From positions 186,001 through 250,000 of the forward strand of contig NZ_SBIT01000009.1 of the NCBI RefSeq assembly GCF_004765785.1: DNA of 64,000 bases, given 5' to 3'. The DNA comes from Halorussus ruber (lineage in GTDB: Archaea; Halobacteriota; Halobacteria; Halobacteriales; Haladaptataceae). The notes under the pieces are model-generated. The model did no database searches. It was not told the origin of the DNA and was given only the letters and a program-made list of their open reading frames with translations. How positions within the stretch are numbered: position 1 is the first letter of the stretch; each line of letters begins with the position of its first letter. Below, in pieces: positions 4,560 to 54,745 of this stretch. The position numbers and the translations under genes are program-made.

Positions 4560-4930
4560 CTTCGGAACGTTTCGTGTGGGAATCGTAGGAGTGGATGGGA
4601 CCGAGGAGGTAGGCGAGAACCGCAGAAGCGGACGGGAACCGCAGGAGTAAACAGGACCGCGATGTCCTCGAAAGCCCTCGCGCGGTTCGCCCTTTCAGTC
4701 CGCCGAGGTGGTGGATTTTCCGGCCCGGCGCGCGCTGGCGCGGCCTCCGTGCCGCGCCATCGGCGTGCGAGGGATGAGTAGCGCAGGCCGAAGGCCGAGC
4801 AACGCAGTCGGTTGGGGAGGGTGTGGTTCGCTGTAGCGGTGCGGTAGACGCCTAGGCTTCGGGAGTAGCTAGCTACTGCTCGGCTTCTCCAGTAGCGCCG
4901 ACAAATCAATCCCACTCCGTCACGAGACTC
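4560..4930. repeat. Intergenic structured repeats: short form of family A and full family B
   Basis: No credible gene lies between dps and the nitrilase gene (4496-4995). Bases 4664-4704 (ctcgaaagccctcgc ... gccctttcagtcc) are the two ends of repeat family A joined with almost no interior, in minus orientation. Bases 4721-4880 are a plus-oriented family B copy. It has a hairpin with arms GGCGCGGC/GCCGCGCC at 4737-4758, then the shared blocks cggttggggaggg, cctaggcttcgg and gtagctagct. The same blocks recur near 22.3, 35.3 and 55.9 kb. Bases 4930-4995 are AT-rich without a recognisable signal. Confidence 0.7.
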
Positions 4931-21886: not shown

Positions 21887-21966
21887 AGGAGCGGAGGACG
21901 AAAGGCGGATGCTCAGAGTAGCGCCATTCCCACGCGCTTCGCTCGGTGGCCCCATCCTCATCCCTG

Positions 21967-22360
21967 GTGGACTGAAAGGGCGAGCGGGGTTCGCGGGCCG
22001 ACAGGCCCGTGGTCGTCTCAGCGGGCCACTATTTCGCGCCGGGCGGTGTCTCGCCGAACGAAGTGAGGCGAGGCTCGGAAGACGCGGTTTGTCTTCCGGC
22101 GCGGAGAGGCGCGAAATATCTCGGTGAGCGACCGCGAACCGCGCGAGGGCTTTCGAGGTCTTAGTCGCTGTTTCTGTCGCGTCTCTAAACAGTACTGGAA
22201 GAAACAGGAAGCTAGCTTCAGGCTCGAACACAGGAGTCTACCGCCCCGCACCGCAACCGCGGGCCACGCCCTCCCCAACCGATTGCGCTTCTCGCTTCGC
22301 TGTGATGCTCATCCCTCGCGCGGAGATGGCGGACCACGAGGGTCCGCCAGCGCGCGCCGG
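21967..22360. repeat. Structured repeats: full-length family A and inverted family B
   Basis: Bases 21967-22160 are a plus-oriented family A element beginning ggtggactgaaagggc and ending gagggctttcgaggtc. Its nested stems include cgggcc/ggcccg-type, tatttcgcgcc/ggcgcgaaata, ctcgcc/ggcgag and, at 22077-22097, ggaagac/gtcttcc with the 7-nt loop. Bases 22205-22360 are a family B copy in minus orientation (gaagctagcttc, accgcaaccgcgggccacg, cctccccaaccg), ending in the stem GGCGGACC/GGTCCGCC at 22328-22348. Between 21887 and 22441 I see no gene. Confidence 0.75.
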
Positions 22361-22441
22361 TTCAGAGATTCCACCGAGCGCGAACCTGTGGCTGATTTTT
22401 CTCTCGATTCCGCCGAACCCTTTTCCCCGATTCCGCCGAAT

Positions 22442-27640: not shown

Positions 27641-27780
27641 GTTTCACCGTTCGGTCGGCCACTCGTCTCCCCGTGACCACTACGAACAACAGTATCGACG
27701 CGATGCCGTCCTCTAAAGCTCCTACTCGGCGCTTTGCATCGCTACCGACTCGACAACTACAGGGACTGTGAACACTTCCT

Positions 27781-27983
27781 GAAGCCCCCGGTCGCTCGCG
27801 GTCGCTCAGCGACATATCGGCGCTCTCCGCACTCCCCGCGCCGATAGCGGTCGCTGAGGCGACTGAAGTGAACGCGAGCGACCGGCCCCTTCATCCACCC
27901 CACGGCGGTTGGTCGGCCGAGCGTTCGCTGGCGGTTGGTCGGCCGAGCGTTCGCTGGCGGTTGGTCAGTCGGGCGTTCGCCGG
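27781..27983. repeat. Structured family A repeat followed by a 26-bp tandem repeat
   Basis: Bases 27781-27901 are a minus-oriented family A element (gaagccccc ... ccccttcatccacccc). The stem cggtcgctcgcg/cgcgagcgaccg encloses ggtcgctcagcgac and tatcggcgc/gcgccgata. Its termini match the copy at 54552-54740 almost exactly while the stems differ. Directly after it, the 26-bp unit cggttggtcggccgagcgtt plus cgctgg starts at 27906, 27932 and 27958. The 54.5-kb copy has this unit once. No gene is seen in 27641-28073. Confidence 0.75.
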
Positions 27984-35194: not shown

Positions 35195-35560
35195 TCTCGG
35201 ATTTCCTTTGCGGTTGGCGCGTGCTGGCGCGGTCTCCTGTGACCGCGCCGAACCGCGCGAGGGCCGAGGACCGCAGCGGGCGAGGACCGCAGGCGGTTGG
35301 GGAGGACGTGGCCCGCGGTTGCGGTGCTGTGCGGTGACTCCGAGGCTTCGGCAATAGCTAGCTTCCTGTCGCCTTCCACCGATTATTTCGATTATGACAC
35401 AGGAACAGCAACTGTGGTCTCGAAAGCCCTCGCACGTCTCGGGTCGGGGGACTCGCTGTGCTTCTCGGTCGCGCCTTCGGCGCTCCCTGCGGTGCTTACG
35501 TCGTCCGCCTTCCCCGAGACGCGCTCGCCCTTTCAGTCCGCCGAGGCCCGCACGTGGTCC
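35195..35560. repeat. Structured repeats: family B followed by inverted family A
   Basis: Bases 35213-35370 are a plus-oriented family B copy, with stem GGCGCGGT/ACCGCGCC at 35226-35249, then cggttggggagga, cccgcggttgcggtgc, ccgaggcttcgg and gctagcttcctg. Bases 35417-35542 are a minus-oriented family A copy (ctcgaaagccctcgc ... tttcagtccgcc) with the stem cgtctcgg/ccgagacg. The B-to-A order and the acaggaacagcaact linker are the same as at 22.0-22.4 kb in the other orientation. No gene is visible in 35115-35665. Confidence 0.75.
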
Positions 35561-54494: not shown

Positions 54495-54745
54495 CACCAG
54501 TAGCGCGACAGCGAATCAACCGTCAGCGAACGCTCGGCCGACCAACCGCCGTGGGGTGGATGAAGGGGCCGCCCGGTCGCGGGCCGGAGGCCCGTGGTCG
54601 TCTGGCCGACCCCTATCTGGGCCGGGCCGTGCGGAGAGGTCCAGCTATGTCGGCCAGCGACCGCCGGGAGACAAACCGCGTCTCCCGAGGTCACGTTCGC
54701 TTCGCTCACGTGACCGCGACCGGGCGGGGGCTTCAAGAAGACACC
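54495..54745. repeat. Structured family A repeat with one flanking 26-bp unit
   Basis: A plus-oriented family A copy occupies 54552-54740 (ggggtggatgaaggggcc ... gggggcttcaagaag). Stems include gggcc/ggccc, tatctgg/ccagcta, ggtcacg/cgtgacc, the outer cccggtcgcgg/ccgcgaccggg, and the 21-nt hairpin gggagac-aaaccgc-gtctccc at 54666-54686. Upstream, cgaacgctcggccgaccaac is a single copy of the unit repeated three times beside the 27.8-kb element. Bases 54360-54494 and 54746-54832 hold no recognisable gene. Confidence 0.75.

Follow-up and report, generated by a model that had tools for sequence, protein, structure and literature searches.

A haloarchaeal family of miniature intergenic hairpins, defined by fold and probably mobile

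REPs and REPINs of the GTAG and CGTC superfamilies are palindromes of 20-40 nt that carry a terminal GTAG or CGTC tag (PMC3116915, PMC3733652). In haloarchaea, the elements known as PATEs are abundant, have near-terminal palindromes and generate no target duplications (PMC3119063). The SMRs of Haloquadratum (SMR-A/B) are frequent repeats of ~110 bp with prominent inverted ends, likewise without target duplication; identity among SMRs of one type is commonly >95%, and the targets of SMR-A are IS605/PATE palindromes (PMC3119063).

The elements reported here come from the window, i.e. the whole stretch of 64,000 nucleotides that was analysed, in a 4.3-Mb Halorussus genome, whose genus is given by the closest named relatives of the PEPCK gene near the elements. 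They probably belong to a family of miniature mobile elements of haloarchaea that are non-coding, are defined by their structure and would be recognised in trans by their fold. As for REPs and REPINs, the copies are extragenic imperfect palindromes, number more than 100 and have alternative complementary stems and G.T pairs (PMC3116915, PMC3733652). They also share with them presence/absence variation, which occurs between strains in REPs, and, in some genera, head-to-head dimers with fixed spacers and tail-to-tail dimers; the CGTC REPs are likewise without a known dedicated transposase. The family differs from REPs in its size (100-190 nt against 20-40), its archaeal hosts, its multi-helix architecture with internal loops and its interchangeable cores. 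Unlike REPs, it also has the clamp GAAAGGGGC/GGGGCTTTC at its ends and lacks a terminal GTAG tag, its helix sequence is free to vary and no linked RAYT was found. With the PATEs of Haloquadratum and Natronomonas it has in common the haloarchaeal host, the palindromic and transposase-free organisation, the absence of target duplication and the existence of terminal-only versions, but PATEs have IS605-type ends and the IS605 loci of the home genome carry none of these termini (PMC3119063). The SMRs are similar in length, inverted ends, frequency and lack of target duplication, whereas the present copies combine a conserved fold with far greater sequence diversity and are found in ordinary intergenic DNA (PMC3119063); the family is set apart from the SMRs (HqIRS40-43/55) by description, not by sequence. 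Covarying helices and conserved loops recall the structured RNAs of Rfam, none of whose families matches. The best reading is that the family works like REPs and REPINs, being extragenic, structured, dimer-forming and polymorphic, without being a member of the GTAG/CGTC, PATE or SMR groups.

Copies recovered from the genome were segmented, and the unit proved to be an imperfect hairpin of 100-190 nt whose helices vary freely yet remain paired. What the family conserves is the terminal clamp, a bulge and internal loops. The conserved ends read TGAARGGG and GGGCTTYC. The termini form a GAAAG/CTTTC (or GAAG/CTTC) clamp closing a G-rich mismatch, which opposes GGGGC to GGGGC in class II termini and GGGCGAG to CGAGGGC in class I termini; class II 3' ends read CTTCAA. 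The mismatch is followed by helix P1, variable in sequence, then on the 5' strand either by ~7 nt or by a side hairpin, H1, which is optional. Helix P2 contains a conserved one-base bulge (GGTCG-T-CT), and an asymmetric internal loop CNC/T adjoins a near-invariant TAT/ATA. Helix P3 varies completely among copies, and the apex, frequently GGGCGGTGCGGAGAG, frequently bears further nested hairpins. Set against a classical MITE, GAAAG/CTTTC is the only inverted end common to the copies; the P1 arms are inverted, their sequence not being conserved. The bulged base is present in 25 of the 26 copies of alignment A1, in 57 of 64 in the order-wide set A2 and in 45 of 56 copies of the home genome. The C/C and T of the loop and most G's of the clamp are near-invariant, and these unpaired features rank among the most conserved parts of the element. 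The 3' handle GTGGGATTGAAG looks CRISPR-repeat-like, a likeness set aside because the motif is too short for a claim.

Two unrelated cores, alpha and beta, occur between the common termini in the window. Alpha element 1 lies on the plus strand at 21966-22158, with class I termini, H1, P2 and P3, and is matched by the covariance model at 21969-22154 (82.6 bits). The 5' arm of its P3, TATTTCGCGCC (22030-22040), pairs with the 3' arm GGCGCGAAATA (22108-22118), which stands directly after CGGAGAG (22102-22108), and its apex holds two extra nested hairpins (22049-22071 and 22076-22098). Alpha element 2, on the minus strand at 27775-27901, has class II termini and no H1 and scores 101.6 bits; in its P1, 27873-27884 pairs with 27789-27800, in its P2, 27850-27863 with 27801-27813, and in its P3 (TATCGGCGC/GCGCCGATA), 27838-27846 with 27815-27823. 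Alpha element 3, on the plus strand at 54552-54742, combines class II termini with H1 and is matched at 54579-54664 (82.4 bits). Its P2 joins 54596-54611 to 54649-54662, its P3 (TATCTGG/CCAGCTA) joins 54614-54620 to 54641-54647, and two extra hairpins occupy its 3' arm (54665-54687 and 54689-54715). The beta element, on the minus strand at 35418-35542, has class I termini and a core formed by 35487-35505 and 35450-35466; the alpha model matches it weakly (23.6 bits). The beta core, GACGYAAGCACCGCAG...GAGGAGCRCAGCGAG, is conserved separately from alpha, and nearly all of the 44 beta copies recovered are in genera other than Halorussus. Because alpha and beta cores both sit in it, the clamp is a reusable frame. 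Termini-only copies also occur, as with the minus-strand remnant at 4666-4704, whose 5' end (4688-4704) and 3' end (4666-4683) enclose no core.

These copies had been picked out in an earlier note on the same DNA, whose description of the termini holds at all five places. Its quoted stems at 22.1, 54.6 and 27.8 kb are exact, and the copy at 4664-4704 does lack its interior. The listed places are right, three of them (27781-27901, 35417-35542 and 4664-4704) being actually on the minus strand. The interior with TAT / CGGAGAG / ATAT is found in the three alpha elements and not at 35417-35542, which has the beta core; the member given as 54552-54740 belongs to the family, with the two extra 3'-arm hairpins (54665-54715) to be added to its description.

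Other repeats accompany the elements. Three tandem 26-bp units GGTTGGTC (minus strand, 27902-27980, at 27907, 27933 and 27959) abut the 5' end of element 2, and tandem units of ~26 bp (GCGAACGCTCGGYGAAYCAACCGCC) abut the 5' end of many Halorussus copies in varying number. Compared by eye, they seem similar to the spacer of ~40 nt that separates head-to-head elements in other genera (motif GGTTGGTC-GCCG). A separate dispersed intergenic repeat, GCGAGGGATGAGTAGCGCAG..GAGCAACGCAGTCGGTTGGGGAGG..GTGG..GCTAGCTTCC, is present in the window at 4720-4870, 22240-22400 and 35250-35370, and the GCGAGGGATGAGTAGCGCAG repeat is also found beside elements in other genera (e.g. L135, L059).

The conservation of the fold is far above chance. 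A1, in which 26 short copies from several genomes were aligned with MAFFT, supports 40 pairs, and the covariance model was built from these copies. Standard pairs fill 96.1% of its pair cells against 86.4% (sd 0.7) after shuffling, and only 31-40% when the partners are slid by 1-3 columns. Covariation amounts to 0.258 against 0.094 in shuffled alignments, a value reached in none of 500 shuffles, and double changes occur in 17 of the 40 pairs. In A2, the order-wide set of 72 matches, whose alignment was fitted to the model and hence leans towards it, 37/40 pairs show double changes and 97.3% of cells are paired (slid controls, 28-40%). A MAFFT alignment of beta copies (A5) contains 31 predicted pairs, 23 of them with double compensatory changes. 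The helices of A1, A2 and A5 covary as those of a structured non-coding RNA family would, and the very strong compensatory change supports the earlier proposal that the paired changes reflect selection on a structure.

The family is abundant and widespread. A plain DNA search recovered 64 pieces in the home genome and matches in all 17 sampled Halorussus congeners. The covariance-model search, a check that the earlier note had put forward, succeeded well beyond the window, with at least 142 matches in the home genome at E <= 0.001. Matches were also found in 75 of 292 genomes of the class and 33 of 77 sampled haloarchaeal genera, under strict filters and with the scoring of about 11 candidates in each genome. 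In its exact form, the pattern TGAAAGGGGC-N75-105-GGGGCTTTC occurs in 150/292 haloarchaeal genomes from 50 genera, from 58 exact termini pairs per genome down to none; the reversed termini pattern, used as a control, gave one match among the genomes listed. No match was found in the phage collection, and viral carriage was rejected for 15 IMG/VR termini matches, which by eye lay in ordinary-looking phage DNA without the fold and looked like chance. None of 56 located elements lies inside a gene predicted by a simple composition-based gene caller. Neighbouring genes have mixed orientations (22 same/same, 9 opposite/opposite, 14 divergent and 8 convergent, a few sites being counted twice), and a terminator or 5'-UTR role was rejected on this ground. 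Among the 56 located copies of the home genome, identity exceeds 95% in only two independent pairs; one home-genome pair is 98.2% identical and has unrelated flanks.

Sites were compared among related species. At the PEPCK/DUF123 junction, window 27775-27901 is orthologous to H. litoreus L188:6413-6539, with the common junction TTCACTTCAG, and the two copies show compensatory differences in P1 and P3. The same junction holds a decayed half copy in the MAG L205 and no element in H. salinisoli, H. aquaticus and H. marinus. Opposite the window copies at 22.0 and 35.4 kb, H. salinisoli has short element-free intergenic regions, with flanks too diverged for boundaries to be placed. Two Haloarcula sites, L261 and L263, were traced over 32 sampled genomes of the genus (g23). 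The empty alleles that one would look for in relatives of a mobile element exist at L261: a 254-bp insertion stands immediately after a stop codon in G195, and the site is cleanly empty in ten other species (G132, G051, G236, G293, G113, G086, G082, G212, G323 and G209), all with the same 91-92-bp stretch. Flank identity reaches 93-99%, the empty junction reads GAGTAG/CCAGCGCACC, and no target duplication distinguishes filled from empty alleles at this one site. Insertion in one lineage is the simplest reading. The G195 copy has no near-identical donor in its own genome among the matches listed, the next best being 74% identical, so that it may instead have come from another strain by recombination.

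The second site, L263, is empty in six genomes (G181, G051, G236, G132, G212 and G082) and carries a head-to-head beta pair in G195 and another pair in G145. G136 and G323 have the same two P1 types as G195 in swapped positions (L263/L281 versus L292 and L288), as though the composite had flipped in place or had entered the site in the opposite direction. The site is truncated in G114 and G293 and holds a single reversed alpha copy in G209. With these alleles, L263 shows recurrent occupation, exchange or inversion, and suggests the doublet as a moving unit. Head-to-head partners were found for 19 of 36 sampled elements in genus g20, 17 of them with a 36-42-nt spacer, and for 3 of 17 in Haloarcula (41-42 nt). 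In Halorussus, 78 of 80 elements have no partner within 110 bp, none is head-to-head and the two partnered ones are tail-to-tail; outside that genus a few tail-to-tail pairs also occur. The structure and the site polymorphism are demonstrated by these data. Because the fold is kept while the letters change, and because matching sites are filled or empty in related species, the elements look like a miniature mobile family, as had been supposed from the window.

A separate Haloarcula locus drew attention. On plasmids or contigs (L211:1360-3117, L212, L213, L215, L141-L145), an alpha copy lies ~490 bp upstream of a divergent gene for an OB-fold (SOSS-B/RPA-like) protein, in a position that is fixed in many Haloarcula species; named plasmids with this locus served to identify genus g23 as Haloarcula. 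The stretch between them is strongly conserved, possibly structured, and contains a TATA-like box. This locus may be special, perhaps domesticated.

For a mobile family of this kind, we infer that one strand would fold, either during replication, as single-stranded DNA, or as RNA. The fold and the clamp, not the helix sequence, would be recognised by an enzyme acting in trans, which would excise or insert a hairpin or a head-to-head pair without target duplication. Selection through such recognition would account both for the covarying arms and for the persistence of bulges and G.G mismatches. More tentatively, the elements could form a new archaeal class of structure-recognised mobile DNA, with a fixed clamp and interchangeable cores. 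They could then spread as lone hairpins or as head-to-head pairs able to invert, through either a non-Y1 enzyme or an RNA-guided or RNA-templated route.

The fold could alternatively be kept for an RNA, the copies being scattered members of one structured non-coding RNA family (either sRNA genes or protein-binding motifs embedded in transcripts) whose spread is secondary; we regard this as unlikely, although it accounts for several observations. Among alpha copies, 127 of 135 have the more stable RNA fold on the plus strand, as do 22 of 36 among beta copies. The alpha bias arises partly from loops common to all copies, so that the 127 are not independent observations. G.U pairs in stems outnumber A.C oppositions by 29 to 4 order-wide (A2) and 57 to 35 within Halorussus; with one count per column type the ratios fall to 12:4 and 22:17 and are not significant. 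For alpha, this suggests that one strand is functional, RNA and single-stranded DNA both fitting, and it disfavours a cruciform using both strands equally, as was first envisaged, since nearly all alpha copies fold best on the same strand. The strand-biased fold, with its plus-strand purine-purine mismatches and G.U pairs, suits an RNA, and so do the compensatory P1 and P3 changes between two species at the orthologous Halorussus site and the fixed alpha position ~490 bp from the Haloarcula OB-fold gene, with a TATA-like box between. However, the 300 bp upstream of alpha and beta copies show no TATA-like motif or A+T enrichment, gene orientation is inconsistent, copies turn over between species and no Rfam family matches. 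A standalone sRNA promoter was rejected on the same upstream signals.

It is improbable that arm complementarity was made by template-switch correction of quasipalindromes or by gene conversion with no selection on the fold. Such processes could explain the wholly different P3 hairpins at orthologous Haloarcula sites in an unchanged context (L141 versus L145) and the way in which copies combine hairpins and cores as mosaics. Yet the single-base bulge, the CNC/T loop and the G.G mismatches, which they would be expected to remove, are the most conserved parts, and the order-wide excess of G.U over A.C also speaks against them.

Movement of PATE-type IS200/IS605 derivatives by a hairpin-recognising Y1 transposase, held by the earlier note to be the main alternative, now appears very doubtful. 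Haloarchaeal PATEs are abundant and palindromic and leave no target duplications (PMC3119063), the home genome has 23 TnpB (PF07282) and 7 Y1 (PF01797) matches, and class II 3' ends read CTTCAA. However, none of these loci carries the termini: BLAST of the elements against 27 tnp loci returned only neighbouring copies and generic hairpins, and inspection of the tnpB 3' regions revealed no IS605 ends matching these termini. TnpB matches are many and Y1 matches few in this genome, and no TnpB match lies near one of the Y1 genes, L055 (C1:486604-486948). Moreover, a congener (G011) and two other genomes (G003 and G059), 99% complete, contain 54, 11 and 35 exact termini pairs, respectively, and no PF01797 match. 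Because such copy-rich genomes are without one, the elements do not at present depend on a resident Y1 transposase. All 14 genomes checked have TnpB, which may be involved. No mobilising enzyme, autonomous relative or parent transposon was found. Two genes recovered between flanking copies were considered as an autonomous element and discarded, since by eye they look like a cupin and a small helical/TFIIB-like protein, not transposases. The least credible explanation is a BIME-like chromosomal site that binds protein or serves replication or segregation for the cell and is spread by recombination: the elements are abundant, intergenic, order-wide and linked to an OB-fold (RPA/SOSS-B-like) gene on Haloarcula plasmids, but their copy number varies widely (58 exact termini pairs to none) and sites are lost or absent in sister species.

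The suspicion that the family was undescribed is supported by Rfam, where a search up to E 5 gave no match reaching a family's threshold or overlapping an element, and by the literature searched, which yielded no description. A large repeat family with covarying helices, found in neither, appears to shape haloarchaeal intergenic DNA. As an archaeal counterpart to REPINs, it is structurally much richer and has no obvious mobiliser. With it one can test whether an element recognised purely by its fold can persist throughout an order, and whether it is templated repair or selection that keeps the arms complementary. It also calls for caution, as strong covariation in haloarchaeal intergenic DNA need not denote a riboswitch or an sRNA.
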